Positions 11,435-29,993 of a stretch of DNA of 48,555 bases are shown in pieces. The translations under genes were made by a program, and so were the position numbers. This DNA is from a virus: IMG/VR virus record IMGVR_UViG_3300005663_000068, positions 1-48,555 of that record; one strand, written 5' to 3'. Below the pieces are notes generated by a model. It had not been told where the DNA came from, searched no databases, and saw only the letters and a list, made by a program, of their open reading frames with translations. Every line of letters starts with the position of its first letter. The first letter of the stretch is position 1.

Positions 11435-12649
11435 TTACTCTGATTCCTTGCTAGGTATTCCAAGTTGATCTTCCATAGCCTTAACATCAATATCAGCTAT
11501 CACTAGTATTCCATCAGGACTCTTTAGAATGTCAGAGTACACTGATCGGATATACTCCAACACTAGATCAACAATTGGTGCAGGTGATATGAAGACTGTG
11601 TTCTCAGCTTCGGGACCATAGTTAAACCGTAGCAGTTGATTTACTAGATGCCAGTTGACAAGTTGCACAACTACCTTATGCCTAACTTCCATGTTAATAA
11701 TTGCCATGTCCGCGTGCTGTTCTGCCTCTGACTTAGTTCCGAATTGCCCCTCTAAGATTGCACGTTCAGGCATTCCAAAAGCTCGTACTTTCAACGCATC
11801 TAAATACTTCATCCGTGCAACCATAGAAAATTGCTTAGGCCCTCCGTCATCAAGCAAATCTATGCTCCACCCACCTCCCAAGTCCCTGTCTATTGAATCC
11901 TTCAAACTTTTTGCACCCGTTGGCATTGCTATCTTACCAGATGACTCTAAGGTATTTAATAGATCGGAGGCAATTTCAAAGTTATCTACGTCCTTTTTAC
12001 CATTATGTATAGCAGTACCTTCAGGGTAAGACACCACCCAATGCGCACCTGCTATGCGGTTATCGTACTTCTTTGCTACATCGTTGGCCTTATCCCAATC
12101 GTCTTGTGTACTCTTAACAATCTCCAACAGACCTTGACCATACCAGTTAGTTCCCTCTACGTCAATGTATAGAACAAGGACTTCATCAGTACTTAGAGTT
12201 ATATCATTACCCATTGCCAAAGTTTGCTTGATACCAAGCAAAGCTCCGTTAGACCTATCTACAAGTAGCCTAGATATGTCATGCAATAGGGGCTTAAGTT
12301 TCTTAATACCTATCTGCCTACTAGGCAGCAACTCAAACACCTTCTCGAATGACTGCCAACCAAAGTCTGTACAACCTAAGAAACCTGTACGCAAGATGTG
12401 CATACGTAATGGAGCCATCTGTACGTCGATAAACTCTTTAGCACCATCAGGCGCATCCTTAGTTGCCTCTATTGACCAAGGGGCTGCCAGTATTGGAGCA
12501 ATACTTAACTGCCTTGCAAGAGCTATCGTAGGGTCTTTGCGCAACGCGCGCAACTGTTTGTAAGTAGCACTGCCAACAGTTCGAGCTAAAGTATCATCGA
12601 ACTGCACAGACAGTATTTGCGAAGGTGTCTTCTCTTTTGTCTTAGCCAT
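11435..12649 (-). CDS. Portal protein (DUF935/Mu gp29-like)
   Basis: Protein of 404 aa immediately after the large terminase. It shows portal features of the DUF935 group: LRKDPTIALARQLSIAPILAAPW near the start, FGWQSFEKVFEL, a LLVDRSNGALLGIKQ beta segment, a VLYIDVEGTNWYGQGLLE motif, and a long SEAEQHADMAIINMEVRHKVVVQLVNWHLVNQLL helix. The portal dodecamer is the DNA gate of the capsid. Its position before MuF and protease genes, though with an exported block between, agrees. Confidence 0.85.
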   Translation of the reverse strand: MAKTKEKTPSQILSVQFDDTLARTVGSATYKQLRALRKDPTIALARQLSIAPILAAPWSIEATKDAPDGAKEFIDVQMAPLRMHILRTGFLGCTDFGWQSFEKVFELLPSRQIGIKKLKPLLHDISRLLVDRSNGALLGIKQTLAMGNDITLSTDEVLVLYIDVEGTNWYGQGLLEIVKSTQDDWDKANDVAKKYDNRIAGAHWVVSYPEGTAIHNGKKDVDNFEIASDLLNTLESSGKIAMPTGAKSLKDSIDRDLGGGWSIDLLDDGGPKQFSMVARMKYLDALKVRAFGMPERAILEGQFGTKSEAEQHADMAIINMEVRHKVVVQLVNWHLVNQLLRFNYGPEAENTVFISPAPIVDLVLEYIRSVYSDILKSPDGILVIADIDVKAMEDQLGIPSKESE

Positions 12650-13970: not shown

Positions 13971-14080
13971 GGAATCACTGCCAGCATTAACCAGAACCTA
14001 ATCCTAATTGATTGCAAACGTGCTTGATGTTGGCGTACATTCTTTTCCGCTACAATTTGCCACCGTTCTAAAGGAGTCAT
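13922..14080 (-). CDS. Small membrane protein (52 aa)
   Basis: Read from an ATG overlapping the preceding stop (ATGA at 14080-14077). It has a basic, helical N-terminal half (MTPLERWQIVAEKNVRQHQA) and a C-terminal membrane span (FWLMLAVIPCAVVLPIVL). Its stop overlaps the GTG candidate start of the large terminase, so it is probably translated in line. It could be a small holin or spanin-like protein, but nothing specific supports that. Confidence 0.55.
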   Translation of the reverse strand: MTPLERWQIVAEKNVRQHQARLQSIRIRFWLMLAVIPCAVVLPIVLRWVIGC

Positions 14081-14301
14081 ATCTCTACTTCCCTAAAAGG
14101 CTTCTCTATACCATGACCACAACACGCAGACACAACACCCTCTATACTACCCAGACAAGCATCATGCCCTAAGTCTGTAGGCATACACCTACACTTTCTA
14201 CAAGACCTCTGAACAGTTATTGGTGTACAGGTATCAACATACACCCATTGCTTACCCAATGCCTTTATAGGCCAACCTCGTTGGTAAGATGTAGCAGTCA
14301 T
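14077..14301 (-). CDS. Small Cys-rich conserved phage protein
   Basis: Protein of 74 aa with a CRKCRCMPTDLGHDAC cluster and a GVVSACCGHGIEKPF motif; the latter is common in short proteins near phage terminase genes. Probably binds zinc. Coupled on both sides (overlaps with the small-terminase-like gene and the 52-aa gene). No function known. Confidence 0.6.
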   Translation of the reverse strand: MTATSYQRGWPIKALGKQWVYVDTCTPITVQRSCRKCRCMPTDLGHDACLGSIEGVVSACCGHGIEKPFREVEI

Positions 14302-14951
14302 TGACTTGGTACCGTTGAATCCATATCCAATGCGTCTTGATCTGGGGTTAAATTCGTACCTACTTGCTCAACAGGCATTACCAACTTCTCGTGTATCAGC
14401 TTCTCGAAGACTCTAGCCTTTGGTAAGTCATCTTTGAAAGCCTCATAAGCAAGCTTAACGATCTGATTAACAACGTGTCCAAGAGCATGGACAGATAGCT
14501 TATCACTTGCTGCGTTCTCTATGTCTTGTGCTACCTTAGCTGTTGCTACAATCTCCTTGAGTGCATCCCTAACAAGCATACTCGCATTTAGTATAAGCTT
14601 TTCCTTACCACTTGTCAAAGCGACATCAAACAATAGCATAACTTGCATAGCAGTTTCCCGCATCACTGCAAGCTCTTCTAAGACACTGCACTGCTCACTA
14701 ACGGGAGCATCTAACGAAGTCTCTATAACTTGTTTGAGTGTTCCCGACAGTCTTTTGGCGTAGAATACTGGCAACCTATTAACCCTTGGTCCCTTACCGC
14801 CTACGTGTCCACCATGAAACTTACAGTAGTTTCTACCGGGTACAGCCCACTTACAACAAGGCTCACCATCCCGCCTTCTCTTAGCCTTACAGGCGCGGGG
14901 ATGGATGGTGCCCTTAGCTAAATAGTAACCTACATGCCTGGAGTTGAGCAC
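14298..14951 (-). CDS. HGG-motif protein, putative terminase small subunit
   Basis: Protein of 217 aa. Residues about 15-55 carry CKAKRRRDGEPCCKWAVPG...YCKFHGGHVGGKG, the zinc-like 'Cys-Arg...HGG' module often found beside large terminase genes. The rest is helical and ends with an acidic tail. The role in recognising phage DNA for packaging is inferred from position, two short genes before the large terminase. It overlaps the sigma-like gene by 22 bp. Confidence 0.6.
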   Translation of the reverse strand: MLNSRHVGYYLAKGTIHPRACKAKRRRDGEPCCKWAVPGRNYCKFHGGHVGGKGPRVNRLPVFYAKRLSGTLKQVIETSLDAPVSEQCSVLEELAVMRETAMQVMLLFDVALTSGKEKLILNASMLVRDALKEIVATAKVAQDIENAASDKLSVHALGHVVNQIVKLAYEAFKDDLPKARVFEKLIHEKLVMPVEQVGTNLTPDQDALDMDSTVPSQ

Positions 14952-15421
14952 TTGGCGATTGCCTCCTGATATACCTTAGCAATCTTCCACGGACGCACGC
15001 CGACCCTCTTAGCTATCTCTGCAAAAGTCTGCTCATATAGAACATGCAATGTTACAATCCTTCTCTCGTAACCTGTGAGGCTTCTCATTAAATATTGTAC
15101 GTTGTCGGCGTCATCCATATCGAAAGTTTCTGAAATCTTATCCTCTATTGAATAGAACTCAGCATCAAGCGACACTACACATTGACCGCGACGGTTCAGC
15201 CACGTATAACAATGCCATTTTAAGTTGTTAAAGACCCATGTACTAAGTTTTGATTTCTCTGGTATCCAACGCTCTATGATTCCAGGCACACGGTCTAAGA
15301 CAACCTCTGAGAACATATCATCAACTAAATGCGCACGTTCCCTACAAACCTTATGGCATACCTTATAGCATAAGGGTAAGTTATCCGCAATCCATTGATA
15401 AGGTTCCGGCTTGTCGTCCAT
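14930..15421 (-). CDS. Sigma-70-family-like factor
   Basis: Protein of 163 aa. The N-terminal half (FSEVVLDRVPGIIERW...KLSTWVFNNLKWHCYTWL) resembles region 2. The C-terminal half (LTGYERRIVTLHVLYEQTFAEIAKRVGV, then PWKIAKVYQEAIAK) is a region 4-type helix-turn-helix. Length fits compact ECF-type or phage late sigma factors. It lies just before the packaging genes, so control of late transcription is a reasonable inference. Its first eight codons are duplicated 450 bp upstream. Confidence 0.7.
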   Translation of the reverse strand: MDDKPEPYQWIADNLPLCYKVCHKVCRERAHLVDDMFSEVVLDRVPGIIERWIPEKSKLSTWVFNNLKWHCYTWLNRRGQCVVSLDAEFYSIEDKISETFDMDDADNVQYLMRSLTGYERRIVTLHVLYEQTFAEIAKRVGVRPWKIAKVYQEAIAKCSTPGM

Positions 15422-15424
15422 GAG

Positions 15425-15577
15425 CTAGTCGTGATTGTGTGTTGGTCCTTGCTTCCAATATTCGTGATAAGAGTCTAAGTCGTAAGCACCTTCTGAACTA
15501 CGCCTGTCTAACATCTGTATACGATGTAACGTGTAGGCGTGCAATAGGAACGACAACGTGAGGAATAGATACATCAT
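15425..15577 (-). CDS. Small N-terminally anchored protein (50 aa)
   Basis: Begins at an ATG overlapping the stop of the 84-aa gene (ATGA at 15577-15574). It reads MMYLFLTLSFLLHAYTLHRI, a membrane or signal segment, then a polar tail ending GPTHNHD. It ends four bases before the sigma-like gene. Too short to classify; translational coupling is the main support. Confidence 0.55.
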   Translation of the reverse strand: MMYLFLTLSFLLHAYTLHRIQMLDRRSSEGAYDLDSYHEYWKQGPTHNHD

Positions 15578-15828
15578 AACCCTTCACTCCCTTCTAACAA
15601 GTCCAACATTTGTCTTGCAATAACTACATTATCAACCCACACACCTTTGACCTTACGTTTACCCCAAGGGTACTGTATCAACCAATCCACACTCCCAGAT
15701 TCAATACGTACAGTTACGGGGCATCCTCTAGCATGTTCGCCTAACAGCTTCAATAGGTCATATGTCTTAACAACTAGAAACAATGTTAGACACAGCACAA
15801 CACCTTGCAACAACTCTAATAAGATCAT
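15574..15828 (-). CDS. Membrane-anchored small protein (84 aa)
   Basis: N-terminal hydrophobic helix (ILLELLQGVVLCLTLFLVV) followed by a soluble region with VTVRIESGSVDWLIQYPWG. The ribosome site AAGGAGAAGG comes from the duplicated segment at 15831-15875. Function unknown. It belongs to a run of small membrane and zinc-ribbon genes. Confidence 0.6.
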   Translation of the reverse strand: MILLELLQGVVLCLTLFLVVKTYDLLKLLGEHARGCPVTVRIESGSVDWLIQYPWGKRKVKGVWVDNVVIARQMLDLLEGSEGL

Positions 15829-15880
15829 AACTACCTTCTCCTTAAATGATGATAAGGTTCCGGCTTGTCATCCATGAGCT
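15829..15880 (-). repeat. Recombinant duplication: sigma-gene start joined to 3' end of the 16081-16431 gene
   Basis: The first half copies the start region of the sigma-like gene (about 15396-15430, one base different over the shared stretch). The second half copies the 3' end and ribosome site at about 16079-16107. They join at TGATAAG, which both parents contain. The result is a 14-codon ORF (15875-15831), MDDKPEPY + HHLRRR, matching the sigma N-terminus and the other gene's C-terminus. It now supplies the ribosome site of the 84-aa gene. Confidence 0.8.
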
Positions 15881-15892
15881 AGTAGACTATGC

Positions 15893-16078
15893 CTACCTAG
15901 CATTTTTACGTGTACACACCAAACCCCAAATAGTGTCTGCACAATACACACAAACATCATAGACCTTCCCGTTAAAGGTTGGCCGAAACCACTTCTTAGG
16001 TGGTACCTTACCTGGTAATGCTACCATAGTAGCTCCACACAAATCGCACTTAAACTCCACAACAGTTCTATCACTCAT
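15893..16078 (-). CDS. Zinc-ribbon small protein (61 aa)
   Basis: Two Cys pairs, CDLC near residue 11 and CVYC near residue 39, spaced like a zinc ribbon, with a basic tail (CTRKNAR). Ribosome site AAGGAGAAGG lies just upstream. Could bind nucleic acid or an RNA polymerase partner, but no specific family is recognised. Confidence 0.65.
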   Translation of the reverse strand: MSDRTVVEFKCDLCGATMVALPGKVPPKKWFRPTFNGKVYDVCVYCADTIWGLVCTRKNAR

Positions 16079-16080
16079 AG

Positions 16081-16431
16081 CTACCTTCTCCTTAAATGAT
16101 GATAAGCTAACCGTGCAACCTTACGCATGGCATCCTGCAAATCCCACGAACGTACCTCTATGTACTTACTACCTGCCCACAAACTACAAACAAACCCTAT
16201 ATGATCTTGAGTGTACCCTGCGTATACATGCTCAGTACGTTCCCAAAGTATCATACGCAACTCTCCAACAGTTGCCCATTCTTCAAAATGTGAGTACCAC
16301 TTGCGCAACGATCTAAGCTTCCGAAGTCTTCGCCACTTGTCGAAGCTATCTACAAACCATTCACAATACATGATGGTAAGTATTACAAAACAAAATAACA
16401 TATAGAACCAACACCCTTCGTTAAAAGTCAT
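16081..16431 (-). CDS. Small membrane-anchored protein
   Basis: The ATG at 16431 follows a perfect GGGAGGT site and is preferred over one six codons earlier. Product about 116 aa: an N-terminal membrane span (CWFYMLFCFVILTIMYCEWF), a basic helix (KWRRLRKLRSLRKW), then a mixed domain. The C-terminal YHHLRRR codons are those copied into the duplication at 15829-15880. Function unknown. Confidence 0.6.
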   Translation of the reverse strand: MTFNEGCWFYMLFCFVILTIMYCEWFVDSFDKWRRLRKLRSLRKWYSHFEEWATVGELRMILWERTEHVYAGYTQDHIGFVCSLWAGSKYIEVRSWDLQDAMRKVARLAYHHLRRR

Positions 16432-16433
16432 AG

Positions 16434-16628
16434 CTACCTCCCTGTACACTCGTAAGAATCATCATTACACCACAACCTAAACTCTCTCCGAGTTACACCG
16501 CACCTAGTACATCTCAAAGTAAACCTATTCCAAACAGGTTTACTACTACTTGGCTGGAAGTGTACCAACACTATTAACACTACTACTGAAACTACAACTA
16601 TCACTATGAGAGCTATTAACTCAAACAT
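16434..16628 (-). CDS. Small membrane protein with zinc-ribbon-like tail (64 aa)
   Basis: The ATG at 16628 is preferred because the GGTGGAGGTGG tract lies just upstream. Residues 2-24 are almost entirely Ile/Val/Leu, a clear membrane span. The tail has CTRCGVTRREFRLWC with a further Cys, like half a zinc ribbon. Coupled to the 56-aa gene upstream. Function unknown. Confidence 0.6.
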   Translation of the reverse strand: MFELIALIVIVVVSVVVLIVLVHFQPSSSKPVWNRFTLRCTRCGVTRREFRLWCNDDSYECTGR

Positions 16629-16629
16629 T

Positions 16630-16800
16630 TCACCACCTCCACCTTTCATCGTCTTCGACTAGACCGTAAGCTTCGATTAACTCGTGAAGATGTTCCACCC
16701 ATTCATACATTGCTTGACTAGCACGTTGACTGCGAATCATTAGCATAGTATTAACACATTGAAACATTATACATGCAAGAAGTAGTAAGGTTATTGTCAT
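16630..16800 (-). CDS. Small hydrophobic-headed protein (56 aa)
   Basis: Starts at an ATG overlapping the stop of the DUF1937 gene (ATGA at 16800-16797). Reads MTITLLLLACIMFQCVNTML, then an amphipathic helix (RASQAMYEWVEHLHELIEAY) and an acidic end. The last codons hold the ribosome site for the next gene. N-terminal membrane or signal anchor. Function unknown. Confidence 0.6.
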   Translation of the reverse strand: MTITLLLLACIMFQCVNTMLMIRSQRASQAMYEWVEHLHELIEAYGLVEDDERWRW

Positions 16801-17480
16801 AAGCCTCTACACCTCCTCTCTGCAAGTATAGCGTTATCCATCGCACTCCTAATAGCACCGTGCGAAGCACTATATGTAATATCTCCAGTAGTAGCCATAA
16901 CACCTTGGCCTAGCGAAGGTACTGCAAATGTTATTCGATAATGGTTATCAAAGTTCTGTAGACCTTGCTTAACCTTCTGCACCTCATCCACATCAAGATA
17001 CACAATCTTCCTCCCTAACTCCTTAGCAATCTCAACCTCAGCCGTAACTCCCTTAGACTCCTTCCAACCATCTAAGCACAACACCCAAACCTCATCACAC
17101 CACTCTATGAAAGTCTTATCAAGTTCCTTCCAATAATCCCAATCTGTTGATAGGTTATGCTCAATAGCCATCCAATGACAAGATACTATTGGTGAATAAA
17201 CTGTATGACCACTCTTCATTAGTTCAGCAGCCTTTTTAGTGACAGCCTCGAAGCGTTCCCTCTTAACATTCATATAGCCTGAAGAATAAGGGCACGCTAA
17301 GTAAATCTTTAAGGGTTGGTAGCGATCCACCATCTCTTGAAGAATAGCCGCCCAGTTAATGTACTCATTCTTAGGAATCTCACGTTCTATATGACCTAAC
17401 TTCACAATATCAGTCGTACTAGTACAAGAGGTTACACTTAAACTAACACCCTTTTCCTTAAGAAACTGAAATAGATCCAT
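16797..17480 (-). CDS. DUF1937 protein, nucleoside 2-deoxyribosyltransferase-like fold
   Basis: Protein of 227 aa with AGGAGG upstream. Residues about 55-165 fit DUF1937: IYLACPYSS, a helix with RFEAVTKKAAELMKSGHTVYSPIV, the acidic WDYWKELDKTFIEWCDEVWVLCLDGW strand, and GVTAEVEIAKELGRKIVYL. The fold is related to nucleoside 2-deoxyribosyltransferases, so nucleotide salvage or base modification is possible, but catalysis has not been shown for DUF1937. Extra N-terminal 50 aa and C-terminal 60 aa are unassigned. Confidence 0.75.
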   Translation of the reverse strand: MDLFQFLKEKGVSLSVTSCTSTTDIVKLGHIEREIPKNEYINWAAILQEMVDRYQPLKIYLACPYSSGYMNVKRERFEAVTKKAAELMKSGHTVYSPIVSCHWMAIEHNLSTDWDYWKELDKTFIEWCDEVWVLCLDGWKESKGVTAEVEIAKELGRKIVYLDVDEVQKVKQGLQNFDNHYRITFAVPSLGQGVMATTGDITYSASHGAIRSAMDNAILAERRCRGL

Positions 17481-17506
17481 AGCACATCCTCCTAGAGTAA
17501 AAAGTA

Positions 17507-17731
17507 TTAACGACCTTGAAAGCAGCTTTTACAGATACTAACACCACCACTCACTACCCATCTATTAGACTCCAACACAACTCTACAACACTCTGGACAC
17601 ACACAATCACTAGGTATTAGCTTGCGCCTTGCAATCGCCCTACGCTCACTGCGCGACTTCCCTTGCACCTTCTCCTTTACGACTAACCTAGTCGCATCAA
17701 GCGCCAATCGCATTGCTCTGTAAACATTCAT
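17507..17731 (-). CDS. Zinc-ribbon small protein (74 aa)
   Basis: The ATG at 17731 has an AGGTG ribosome site. A longer reading from 17821 would run through the inverted-repeat arm and is not favoured. Basic helical N-terminal half (MRLALDATRLVVKEKVQGKS...RRAIARRK), then CVCPECCR and CKSC, a zinc ribbon. Possible nucleic-acid binder. It is the first gene downstream of the gene-free region. Confidence 0.65.
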   Translation of the reverse strand: MNVYRAMRLALDATRLVVKEKVQGKSRSERRAIARRKLIPSDCVCPECCRVVLESNRWVVSGGVSICKSCFQGR

Positions 17732-17800
17732 CTTAGCACCTAAATAAGCACAAGGGCCAGAGTGACCAGCGAGCAAGTGTTTCCGGCCATGAGGCCCCCT
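17732..17800 (+). repeat. Long inverted repeat, left arm
   Basis: Pairs with the reverse complement of about 18294-18240. After skipping a 12-base insertion (AGCAC-CTAAATA-AGCAC, about 17740-17751), the outer 25 bases match perfectly (CTTAGCAC then AAGGGCCAGAGTGACCA). The inner 30 or so match with a few differences. The insertion supplies the AGG of the ribosome site for the 74-aa gene. Confidence 0.85.
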
Positions 17801-18239
17801 AGTCCAACCCACGGCGGGCAAACGTCCCCAAAACCCCCCGCAATACGTACAAAACCACCGATTCCATTGGACTTACGACGATTTCGCTCTTCACAACTTT
17901 CTCAAGACCGCACAAAACCCTACCTCTGGTCAACGTATTCATTGGACTTGCGGCAAATACTCCTCAACACCTATCCACTATCTCGGCAAGACAGCCCCAA
18001 ACTCCTCCCTAACTCGTAAGCAAAAACACGGTCTTCAAGACTTAGACAACAATTTACCTCTCTTCTGCCGAGTTGACAACAACCTCTTCAAAACCTCTTA
18101 AACTACCTAACTCCTTTACTACTAACACCTTATATCATTCACAGTAAGGTAGTAGTTCCCCATAAGCAGTAGTTTAAGTGTTAAAGTGGGTAGTTTAGGT
18201 GGGTATTTCGCGGGTTTTCCCCGCTGTCTGTAGGGCCGA
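17801..18239. other. Gene-free region between inverted-repeat arms, possible origin or control region
   Basis: About 440 bp with no convincing coding frame on either strand. It holds two near-identical direct repeats (ATTCCATTGGACTTACGAC at 17861-17879 and ATTCATTGGACTTGCGGC at 17937-17954). Three copies of a TAAACTAC motif occur, one on the plus strand near 18100 and two on the minus strand between 18160 and 18205. A GC hairpin (GCGGG-GAAAA-CCCGC) lies near 18211-18225. The plus strand from 17821 to about 18130 is strikingly poor in G. Direct repeats plus strand skew and flanking inverted repeats fit a replication origin or a non-coding mobile remnant. Confidence 0.5.
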
Positions 18240-18294
18240 GGGGGCGCTCTGGCCGAAACACTTGCCCGTTGGTCACTCTGGCCCTTGTGCTAAG
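18240..18294 (-). repeat. Long inverted repeat, right arm
   Basis: Begins immediately after the VRR-NUC stop codon on the minus strand (CTTAGCACAAGGGCC...). It matches the left arm at 17732-17800 in inverted orientation. A transcript could fold the two arms into a stem of roughly 50 bp enclosing the gene-free region. Confidence 0.85.
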
Positions 18295-18627
18295 TTAGTT
18301 TGACAATTTAACTAACAATAGCAGCAACTCCGTCCCATCATCGAACTTACCAAGCACAGTTCCCCTAACATCTTCAACAAACCCTGGATACCTAACGACA
18401 AACGCATTACCACCTCGTAAGTTAATCGCACTAATGAACATGCGTTGATTCGTTTGCAGTCTTGTAGTAGCTCCCTTAAACTCCAAGAACCCTCTCCAGA
18501 ACCTGTGACAGATATAACGATCAGGTATTCCAGGCTCTTGCATCTTCTGTGCTACGAACGCAACAACCTTAGCACCCAATCCTTCCAACTCCTTGCACAC
18601 TTCCCTAGTCCATTTTGATTCTAGCAT
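18295..18627 (-). CDS. VRR-NUC domain nuclease
   Basis: Protein of 110 aa, the usual length of phage stand-alone VRR-NUC proteins. The PD-(D/E)XK core is visible: GIPDRY (Asp at about 36) and LEFKG (Glu at about 49, Lys at about 51), followed by TRLQTNQRMFISAI, typical of the family. These nucleases act on branched or flap DNA, so a role in recombination or replication-fork processing is likely. GGAGAGAG precedes the start, which overlaps the glycosyltransferase-like gene. Confidence 0.85.
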   Translation of the reverse strand: MLESKWTREVCKELEGLGAKVVAFVAQKMQEPGIPDRYICHRFWRGFLEFKGATTRLQTNQRMFISAINLRGGNAFVVRYPGFVEDVRGTVLGKFDDGTELLLLLVKLSN

Positions 18628-19363
18628 GTAACTCTCTCCAGTTAGGAGACGTGAAAACCTTGCTTACATAATCCTTTACACAATCCGCCGAGTTGCCAAC
18701 CTCAATAGGCAAGCACCCTGCTGCTATTGCCCGATAAGGTTCGCAGCTATGCCAATCCACCACCGGCGTACACTTTGCAGTAGACAGAATCGCGGACGCC
18801 TCGCCCTCACTAACAGGCCCCATGAACCTCTTGCTATCCCACCCTGAGAAACCCTCCCACCCTTTCCCATACACCTCTATGTCATCCCACTGGTCAAGCA
18901 CCCTGCGCCACTGTTCGTCTTGGTTATGAAACATAGCAAAATCACTAACAACAACCGCAGGCACCTTCCCCGTATTCTCAAGCTCCGGCCACTTAACCCA
19001 TGAGTGCATCCCAGAGAAGCCATCATCAATTACTACCAATTTCAGCTTTAGCCTGTTGACCAGTTCAACAACCGGCGCAAATTCCGTAAGAGTCTTGTAG
19101 CTAATTTTCGCACCACTACTTACTAGATGGTCATTAGCTGTGTCAGGCAAAACCTGGATCATAACTGTAGCTCTTGCATAATCTTCATTGATTCTATCCC
19201 AACCAAATCCCGCTTCTTGCGCAGCTACCGTGCATAAATCTGAGCTACTACGAAAAGGTCGGAGATTGCGTATTTCAGGTGTAAACCTTTCAGCCTCACT
19301 ACCTAAGTGCTCAAGAATTGCTTCCGTGTACTTACAGCCGTCTTTTCCGTGTACTAGGATCAT
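18605..19363 (-). CDS. Glycosyltransferase-like protein (GT-B type C-terminal fold)
   Basis: Protein of 252 aa. The C-terminal half reads like the donor-binding half of GT-B enzymes: IEVYGKGWEGF, then EGEASAILSTAKCTPVV, then EPYRAIAAGCLPIEVGN, where an acidic residue and the PYRAIAAG loop contact the sugar nucleotide. The N-terminal half has VVIDDGFSGMHSW and VVVSDFAMF strands. It could glycosylate phage DNA or host surface sugars; neighbouring DNA methyltransferases make DNA modification an option. Coupled to the broken NUDIX gene by ATGA overlap. Confidence 0.55.
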   Translation of the reverse strand: MILVHGKDGCKYTEAILEHLGSEAERFTPEIRNLRPFRSSSDLCTVAAQEAGFGWDRINEDYARATVMIQVLPDTANDHLVSSGAKISYKTLTEFAPVVELVNRLKLKLVVIDDGFSGMHSWVKWPELENTGKVPAVVVSDFAMFHNQDEQWRRVLDQWDDIEVYGKGWEGFSGWDSKRFMGPVSEGEASAILSTAKCTPVVDWHSCEPYRAIAAGCLPIEVGNSADCVKDYVSKVFTSPNWRELHARIKMD

Positions 19364-19756
19364 TCGTTCCCATCCTCCCTTACTTGTTGTTTAGAACCTT
19401 CAAAGCTCTTCCATAAGACTTGAACAGGTTCAGCGATAGTGGAATAAGCCAATGAAGATTGTGTATACATATACCTGGCAACCTCCCTAGTCATCGTTTC
19501 TACACCCCAAACATTACCAAAACTCCTAAAGAAGTGTACAATAACATCGTCGTTAGCTGCAATGACTACCCTTCTCCATTCTGGTATTAGCAGCCTTGTC
19601 TCTTCCTTAAACTCCCTTGTCATGGCAAGGTGTGGAAGTTCATTCTCTTCAACTCAGCTTACCCTTCTGCCAATCAGGCTTATTCTTCTTGATTAAGACC
19701 ACAAGCTTTTCGTCTGAGCTAAACAAGAACCTCACAACGTATTCTATACGATTCAT
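19360..19756 (-). pseudogene. NUDIX hydrolase broken by internal deletion and frameshift
   Basis: Two frames together make a NUDIX protein. The first 35 codons (19756-19649) read MNRIEYVVRFLFSSDEKLVV...KPDWQKGKLS and stop at TGA. The other frame resumes at once with VEENELPHLAMTREFKEETR, which carries the REFKEE part of the NUDIX box, and runs to 19360. The expected GVGGK between KL(N/S) and VE is missing, as if about 17 bases were lost. The second part has only an ATG at 19623 without a ribosome site. Loss of the GG loop should abolish catalysis. A trailing 87-aa product might still be made. Confidence 0.75.
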
Positions 19757-20556
19757 CAGAAGTTACTCCATACTACTTCGGTCATTGTTCGTTTACTCTT
19801 GCCACCCGCTATGTTATTGGGTAGCTTAAACTCTATCCGTTCCCAAGCGTGTAGTATCTTGTCGTACATTTCACTAGGGTAGCCTGACAACATAAACAGC
19901 CCGTCACATTCGCAGGAGATAAGGTCAAGCATCTCTAGATGATCTGTTGTAGACATCTCATACTTGTAATCACCCACTGCACCTTTTGCTCTAGTCTCAT
20001 GCAGATATGTAGGATCAAGGTAAAACAGTGTACTAGGTCCGTCTTGACTCTTAATAACTTTCAGCGCATCTTGATTCAAGATCACAACGCGCTTTAACCT
20101 TGCATGTACCGCAGGTAAGCCTTCTATTGCAGTCAACCACGCCGACACCTGCTCATTCATACCTCGCCTAGTCCGCCGTCTCGTAAGTGTTGCAAACTCC
20201 TTCATGTTCCCCGCGCGAGATTGCCGACAACGTATGAAGAAGTTTATGGCTTGATTTAGAGGGGTCTTAGCCATGTTAACTGCACCTGCAAATTGTATCT
20301 CACTAAAAGGTGTAACATTTAACATACGACTAAGCTCATCAAATAGCCACCTATCTTGCAAACACTCCCAGAAGTTCATCAATTCACCATCAATATCATT
20401 GACAACCTCACTAACACCCTCTGGATCTTTTTCCAACAACACCGCACCACCTCCGAAGTAAGGCTCAACATAGTGCGTATGCGGCGGCATCATAGCTATG
20501 ATCTTCTTCGCGAGGTAATGCTTACCTCCGTGCCATTTAAGTGGTTGTGTCAACAT
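19756..20556 (-). CDS. D12-class (Dam-like) N6-adenine DNA methyltransferase
   Basis: The ATG at 20556 gives the family-typical start MLTQPLKWHGGK. Motif X KWHGGK is followed by motif I VEPYFGGGAV and a DI acid in VVNDIDGELM. Motif IV is DPTY (about 176) instead of the usual DPPY, which still keeps the Asp and aromatic residue. The C-terminus SKRTMTEVVWSNF is typical. It methylates adenine in a short DNA site, probably to escape host restriction. Overlaps the upstream gene by 20 bp. Confidence 0.85.
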   Translation of the reverse strand: MLTQPLKWHGGKHYLAKKIIAMMPPHTHYVEPYFGGGAVLLEKDPEGVSEVVNDIDGELMNFWECLQDRWLFDELSRMLNVTPFSEIQFAGAVNMAKTPLNQAINFFIRCRQSRAGNMKEFATLTRRRTRRGMNEQVSAWLTAIEGLPAVHARLKRVVILNQDALKVIKSQDGPSTLFYLDPTYLHETRAKGAVGDYKYEMSTTDHLEMLDLISCECDGLFMLSGYPSEMYDKILHAWERIEFKLPNNIAGGKSKRTMTEVVWSNF

Positions 20557-20983
20557 CGAACATCTCCATAAGTGTGAAGGTAGTCTTACCAACTTTCTTG
20601 GTAAGAGATGCACAGTTCTTGTCCATCCACTTCTCTAGTTGTTTAGGTGTAGTGCGTATGTAGTGCTTAACTCTTAGATACGTTTGCTGGTATTTCCACT
20701 TACATCCTCGACACATACTGACACCAAGAAAGGGTATGTAAGCTAAAGCCTTATCCCCTTCGTCATTACCAGGATTAGGCTCATTACAGTTCCAACATAT
20801 TGCAGGGCCGCCAAGTTTTGCAATAACTCTGTTAGTTGCTTTGCGGAAATCTTCAGAACTACTCTCTAAAGGTATTAGTAATTTATGCTCAGCACCACTA
20901 ATAACAATATTATCGCCCTCCAACCACATATTAAGGTTGAAGTTCACCTCTCGCATCCATGCTACTTGAGCTTGATTGTACAC
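20537..20983 (-). CDS. Zinc-binding hypothetical protein
   Basis: Protein of 148 aa with CWNC and, about 35 residues later, CRGC, a split zinc ribbon. Beta-prone start (VNFNLNMWLEGDNIVISG) and helical C-terminus. Located between the two methyltransferase genes. Function unknown. Confidence 0.6.
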   Translation of the reverse strand: MYNQAQVAWMREVNFNLNMWLEGDNIVISGAEHKLLIPLESSSEDFRKATNRVIAKLGGPAICWNCNEPNPGNDEGDKALAYIPFLGVSMCRGCKWKYQQTYLRVKHYIRTTPKQLEKWMDKNCASLTKKVGKTTFTLMEMFDVDTTT

Positions 20984-28735: not shown

Positions 28736-28764
28736 ATTATACCAGATTCAGAAACTCTTGTCAA
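28736..28764 (-). promoter_or_regulatory. Consensus sigma-70 promoter P1
   Basis: TTGACA, 17 bases, TATAAT on the minus strand, a perfect consensus. The -10 lies 53 bases before the ATG of the 28144-28683 gene. The -35 overlaps the last codons of the upstream 65-aa gene. Confidence 0.9.
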
Positions 28765-29602: not shown

Positions 29603-29637
29603 GGGCCTCCGGCTACTAATTCCGCTCACCCCGAATC

Positions 29638-29660
29638 CGCCGGGCTGATTCCCGGCGGGC
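29638..29660 (-). terminator. GC hairpin after the 53-aa gene
   Basis: Perfect CCGCCGGG/CCCGGCGG stem with a 6-base loop on the minus strand, about a dozen bases after the stop at 29672. No U-run follows. It separates the 53-aa gene from promoter P2. Confidence 0.6.
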
Positions 29661-29671
29661 CTCCTTTTCTC

Positions 29672-29833
29672 TTACTTGTTGAAGTTGAACCGTTTTCGTC
29701 CGAGCGGTCGTGTTCGGCCGTGCGGGTCTTTCTTCGGTGTGCGGGTGAGTTTCTCGCCCCAGAGGACATGATCCCATTCGGCTTTGGTCAATTTCCGGTC
29801 GGCTTTCAGAAGTCTTTCTTTTGTCGTGGTCAT
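29672..29833 (-). CDS. Small basic protein in its own unit (53 aa)
   Basis: ATG at 29833 with GGAGACAGAACA upstream, 48 bases after the -10 of promoter P3. Reads MTTTKERLLKADRKLTKAEW, then a basic tail (TPKKDPHGRTRPLGRKRFNF). High Lys/Arg suggests nucleic-acid binding. Followed by a GC hairpin. Function unknown. Confidence 0.65.
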   Translation of the reverse strand: MTTTKERLLKADRKLTKAEWDHVLWGEKLTRTPKKDPHGRTRPLGRKRFNFNK

Positions 29834-29880
29834 TGTTCTGTCTCCGTTAGGTGTTGCGGTTGTCGTTGCCTTACACCCTT

Positions 29881-29909
29881 ATTATACTCTTCTATTCGGT
29901 CGGCGTCAA
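29881..29909 (-). promoter_or_regulatory. Near-consensus sigma-70 promoter P3
   Basis: TTGACG, 17 bases, TATAAT on the minus strand, driving the 53-aa gene. The region just upstream (to about 29938) is nearly identical to that of P5. Confidence 0.9.
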
Positions 29910-29938
29910 GGGCATCTGGCCTTAATTCCGTTCGGATT
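29904..29938 (-). repeat. Upstream promoter repeat, copy 1
   Basis: About 35 bases around and upstream of the -35 of P3 (including CATCTGGCC TTAATTCCGTT on the plus strand) recur at 30552-30586 with two differences. This shows that promoter units were copied along with their upstream DNA. Confidence 0.8.
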
Positions 29939-29964
29939 GTGAAAATAGTTTTCGGCCCATCAGT

Positions 29965-29984
29965 CTACGCTCTGGGGAGCGTAG
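29965..29984 (-). terminator. Perfect hairpin after the 56-aa gene
   Basis: CTACGCTC-CCCA-GAGCGTAG, an 8-bp perfect stem with a 4-base loop, nine bases after the stop at 29994. A short T-rich stretch (CTATTTTC) appears 20 bases later. It closes the P4 unit. Confidence 0.6.
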
Positions 29985-29993
29985 TGCGACGGG

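Follow-up and report, generated by a model that had tools for sequence, protein, structure and literature searches.

Gene layout and the inverted repeat

A gene-free segment bounded by two long inverted arms lies between a VRR-NUC-like nuclease gene and a gene for a small zinc-ribbon protein in the window, i.e., the whole stretch of 48,555 bases analysed here, an IMG/VR-type virus record. The features of this locus are as follows.

17732..18298, minus strand: whole element, a putative long-hairpin leader between the VRR-NUC and zinc-ribbon genes (from the minimum free energy fold and the strongest repeat)
18255..18298, minus strand: arm 1, the 5' arm in the RNA; weaker pairing continues to 18201
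17740..17783, minus strand: arm 2, the 3' arm in the RNA; weaker pairing continues to 17837
17732..17739, minus strand: slipped partial copy of the arm 2 end, GTGCTAAG, 8 bases (from sequence and predicted pairing)
18258..18266, minus strand: arm core GGCAAGTGT, the window's version of AASTGW; its complement in arm 2 lies at about 17772-17780
17737..17741, minus strand: likely ribosome site AGGTG of the zinc-ribbon gene, predicted to be paired within the closing stem
18094..18202, minus strand: predicted inner stem from the TAAACTAC motifs (18202-18189 with 18107-18094)
17856..17952, minus strand: two direct repeats around CATTGGACTT (17856-17877 and 17931-17952)
17507..17731, minus strand: zinc-ribbon gene, the constant neighbour of the element (74 aa, Cys4, basic N-terminal helices)
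18295..18627, minus strand: VRR-NUC-like nuclease gene, the upstream neighbour (PHROG 93 endonuclease, E 7.6e-12)

The arms abut the stop codon of the VRR-NUC-like gene (TAA, 18297-18295), one homologue of which is annotated as a VRR-NUC domain protein, and the ATG of the zinc-ribbon gene (17731-17729). A sigma-like gene lies close by. On the minus strand, arm 1 (18298-18255) is complementary to arm 2 (17783-17740), the two enclosing an interior of 471 nt, and a weaker, ungapped extension of the arms spans 98 nt at 72% (17740-17837 / 18201-18298). The plus-strand left arm carries a 12-base insertion, CTAAATAAGCAC, at 17740-17751; once this is allowed for, the outer 25 bases of the arms (CTTAGCAC and AAGGGCCAGAGTGACCA) are identical. 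These arms with their insertion, their contacts with both neighbouring genes, the direct repeats and inner motifs, and a strong base skew (GC skew of -0.37 at 17-18 kb) had all been given in a preliminary description of this DNA, and each was confirmed. It had also proposed that the next gene owes its ribosome site to the insertion, which was thereby exapted. The AGGTG site (17741-17737) straddles the boundary of the insertion, and the first part of this proposal fits the sequence; exaptation is an interpretation. The slipped copy of arm 2 overlaps the same ribosome site and could, as an alternative to arm 2 itself, pair with the first bases of arm 1.

The inverted repeat is real and far beyond chance. 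Among all inverted repeats in the window it scores 34 by Watson-Crick pairing, and the runner-up scores 13. The minus-strand RNA has a predicted minimum free energy of -237 kcal/mol (z = -8.25), and 0 of 100 shuffled sequences were as stable. The plus-strand RNA is also predicted to fold (-204.6 kcal/mol, z -10.6), because any inverted repeat must do so on the antisense strand as well.

The segment had been called the only gene-free stretch of more than 300 bases, which needs a qualification: positions 29630-29993 also lack a minus-strand ORF of 60 aa, but hold an ORF of about 40 aa behind a good promoter. Three perfect (12/12) sigma-70 promoters are found around there at 28764, 29602 and 30245 on the minus strand, two of them with similar spacers (CTAnnnGGnnACCTGC), together with further 11/12 promoters at 29909 and 30557; the ORFs of this region are small. 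Elsewhere in the window, the third-codon-position GC skew is 0.2-0.75 from about 14000 to 20600 and falls to near 0 upstream of about 20.6 kb, where the step has a log-likelihood of 22.2 (99% of permutations below 16.7, maximum 27.4).

Conserved position beside the zinc-ribbon gene

Relatives of this phage were collected through their terminase and VRR-NUC proteins, without reference to the repeat. The terminase search of IMG/VR yielded 49 loci and the VRR-NUC alignment 27, many on the same contigs. Neither P0001 nor P0002 alone found relatives as an IMG/VR query, a second IMG/VR scan with a wider alignment added no new contigs, and the VRR-NUC alignment found none in cellular genomes. The zinc-ribbon gene was then placed in the contigs with a zinc-ribbon profile, independently of any repeat. 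The gene order in several relatives is VRR-NUC, gap, zinc-ribbon gene, sigma-like gene, and small and large terminase.

In 16 of 17 contigs, the exception being L065, the strongest inverted repeat of the locus lies at most 750 nt upstream of the zinc-ribbon start. The chance of such a placement is about 1e-13 when the chance fractions are multiplied, with the four L014-type phages counted once and provided that the contigs are independent. Even where VRR-NUC is far off (2.2 kb in L067, 1.7 kb in L068 and 0.6 kb in L062), the repeat still adjoins the zinc-ribbon gene, which is therefore its constant partner. The preliminary description had regarded relatives with the same flanking genes and no arms as an argument against an origin; the relatives do have arms. 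MW202657, an annotated phage with a VRR-NUC gene, has neither a gap nor an annotated zinc-ribbon gene behind it.

Several loci show layouts of their own. In L064 (3116-3545), unlike in other relatives, the strongest repeat has one arm within the VRR-NUC coding sequence and its partner farther downstream. Arm 1 of L055 and L060 lies inside the 3' coding end of VRR-NUC, where the hairpin arm dictates the C-terminal residues of that protein. L028, a phage with no detected zinc-ribbon gene, has a long hairpin of 144 nt with 30-nt arms at 11582-11725, with predicted folding energies of -66 kcal/mol on the coding strand vs -54 kcal/mol on the antisense strand.

The zinc-ribbon family conserves C45, C48, C67, C70 and W58 as well as a basic stretch, and its structure model consists of two helices and a ribbon (pLDDT 85). 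The sequence weakly matches ribosomal protein bL32 (E 0.008), and we treat these bL32-like matches only as a lead to RNA binding; a fold search with the model returned weak LIM-like matches only (best E 0.35). Three relatives missed by the profile (L076, L077 and L079) carry the repeat directly before a gene for a related protein with two Cys4 zinc ribbons (L076 2208-2939, L077 4559-5302, L079 from 1117). In L076 and L079, what follows the two ribbons is probably an HTH domain of the Cro/C1 type, with a match (E 2e-4) that falls short of Pfam's cut-off.

Arm sequence, pairing and evidence for RNA

The relatives keep the architecture of the element and replace its sequence. Their elements typically span 175-240 nt (324 nt in L061), and the 567 nt of the window copy are an outlier. 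The arms form about 20-45 pairs; their sequence differs between phages and complementarity is kept. This replacement of sequence under constant pairing explains why homology searches and Rfam miss the element. With Rfam release 15 (including ROOL, GOLLD and 6S), neither the window element nor the elements of nine relatives had a covariance-model match at the gathering threshold, and the window region gave only chance-level matches at E up to 10. A DNA similarity search of the element in the phage database and a 21-nt arm probe in IMG/VR returned nothing useful, no second copy was found in its own record, and a literature search without most subscription journals returned nothing on the element.

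A short core, AASTGW, is common to arm 1 of 14 relatives (Gibbs score 109; at most 76 in 60 shuffled sets), and its C/G position changes jointly in both arms (AACTG with CAGTT, AAGTG with CACTT). L061 has 23 perfect arm pairs without this core. The L055-type phages and L071 contain three or four core copies, one of them next to the ribosome site or to the first ATG that follows arm 2, and the slipped copy beside AGGTG in the window resembles these extra copies. In L056, the zinc-ribbon ATG forms the final three bases of arm 2. Exact copies of the arm core occur almost only at the element in each genome. The arm sequences were also considered as genome-wide operators, which is unsupported for most phages, exact copies being confined to the element. 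Of 18 elements, 17 have an interior with a higher AT content than their locus (e.g., GC of 0.32 vs 0.60 in L067), the sole exception being the window interior (0.49 vs 0.46), and interior k-mers common across groups were at the level of shuffled sequences. In L006 (2373-2760), ATGCAAGCG, which comes just after a promoter, is the complement of CGCTTGCAT, found just ahead of the ribosome site, and an outer helix between the two may close the whole leader.

Covariation of the arms, a check put forward in the preliminary description, was assessed in a clade of five sequences. Here, 24 of 82 pairs are changed on both sides (mean of 10.3 in shuffled alignments, 0 of 500 reaching this count; 2-5 in slid controls), on a structure that was derived from the same five-sequence alignment and is hence favoured. 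This structure includes a 13-bp hairpin in its interior, in which one G·U pair is invariant. Furthermore, among arm mismatches G·U is found 43 times vs 25.9 expected (p 3e-4) and A·C 26 times vs 20.6 expected (p 0.12); the direct, composition-corrected contrast of the two is not significant (p 0.16), and the window's own arms have 2 G·U vs 4 A·C mismatches. Structure in the interiors is weak but significant on the sense strand (mean z -1.0, p 0.006) and not significant on the antisense strand (p 0.33), with no difference between the strands in a paired test (p 0.45). In L006/L067, a 12/12 sigma-70 promoter lies 65 nt upstream of arm 1, the only one with at least 11/12 consensus bases in 17.3 kb; the window has no such perfect promoter upstream of its element.

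Candidate functions of the element

Taken together, we consider it somewhat better than an even chance that the element is a transcribed long-hairpin leader RNA of the zinc-ribbon gene, encoded on the coding (minus) strand and conserved in this phage group. The preliminary description had offered a replication origin, a transposon-like element and a structured RNA as candidates; the last is the best supported of the three, through the conserved position and pairing, the compensatory changes, the sense-strand G·U excess and the promoter upstream in one relative. In the mechanism that we infer, the two distant arms would join in a closing stem of 20-45 pairs or more that encloses an interior of 100-200 nt, and in most phages the 3' side of the stem would reach the zinc-ribbon ribosome site or start codon, or stop just short of it. 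The element would be transcribed in this phage and fold in vivo, and its likely role would be control in cis of the zinc-ribbon message, and of any genes transcribed along with it, through effects on translation or stability, with the basic zinc-ribbon protein as a possible binder of the leader. A switch could arise if arm 1 paired instead with a slipped or additional arm 2 copy next to the ribosome site.

The ribosome site or start of the zinc-ribbon gene is predicted to be paired in the window, L055, L056, L074 and others, and about half open or more in L061, L062, L067, L053, L076, L077, L079 and L064. About half of the relatives leave this site open, so a block of translation cannot be the full explanation, and message stability or protein binding could contribute. 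A speculative extension, which we hold to be doubtful, is a new RNA family defined by its architecture, i.e., the long closing stem and the AASTGW core. The Cys4 zinc-ribbon protein would bind the stem, and a change of arm pairing at the ribosome site would switch both the zinc-ribbon message and the late genes that follow.

The arms could instead act as DNA, as a pair of inverted binding sites. A phage regulator, possibly the zinc-ribbon or zinc-ribbon/HTH protein, would bind them and so repress or loop the DNA upstream of the gene that encodes it. The shared core, its three or four copies in the L055-type phages and L071, with exact copies almost only here, the AT-rich interiors and the probable HTH domain downstream in L076 and L079 would fit a DNA site as well. 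However, the complementarity of 20-45 pairs exceeds any binding site of 9-13 bp, and it is mainly for this reason that a hairpin, and so RNA, is favoured. The spacing of the two sites (157 to 242 bp) also keeps no helical phase, and neither the G·U excess nor the perfect pairs of L061, formed without the core, is expected of such sites; we judge DNA control to be unlikely. We hold a replication origin, with inverted sites flanking a melting AT-rich stretch beside the gene of an initiator-like protein, to be quite improbable. Replication origins can combine inverted sites with an AT-rich stretch, as the elements of the relatives do, and the segment is gene-free with GC3 skew peaking around 14-19 kb. 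The window interior, however, is not AT-rich, the GC3-skew step lies 2.3 kb from the element, the window shows no overall skew inversion or sign change, and the long complementary arms, whose pairing the relatives keep, would be needless for an AT-rich origin.

A phage RNA acting in trans, either 6S-like or of the large ornate kind, could be excised from the operon transcript at the long stem. The elements of many relatives, like 6S RNA, are rods of roughly 200 nt with a long closing stem, and a sigma-like gene is nearby. Unlike 6S RNA, the element lacks an Rfam match, adjoins a start codon and varies in branching, with a far longer copy in the window, and the fact that it consistently accompanies the start of one gene argues for a role in cis; we consider a trans-acting RNA very unlikely. 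ROOL and GOLLD are large structured noncoding phage RNAs, and the window element falls within the size range of ROOL (PMC12286853). It differs from both by the missing Rfam match, the absence of tRNAs nearby and a far less conserved sequence. The idea of a non-autonomous transposon-like element with terminal inverted repeats, prompted by inverted arms enclosing a gene-free core, lacks support and is hardly credible, as all elements of the relatives lie in the same place with non-homologous arms, no empty site was seen in them, and no other copy was found in the record, the phage database or, with the arm probe, IMG/VR.

Phage and bacterial mRNAs with structured 5' leaders that control their own gene are exemplified by the ribosomal-protein operon leaders and T4 gene 32. 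As in these, the element stands directly before one gene, and in several relatives its 3' edge bears the ribosome site. It differs in that its defining feature is a very long closing stem, with a different stem sequence from phage to phage, and in having its ribosome site open in about half of them. If the RNA reading holds, it is a variant of the structured-leader kind.

This is a real and conserved element of a phage group, and apparently an undescribed one. A non-coding element kept in place across otherwise diverged phages implies selection, and scanning for a long inverted repeat next to a zinc-ribbon gene could reveal more of them. The element and the zinc-ribbon protein would make a small RNA (or DNA)/protein pair amenable to testing, close to where the late genes begin in an uncultivated phage group.
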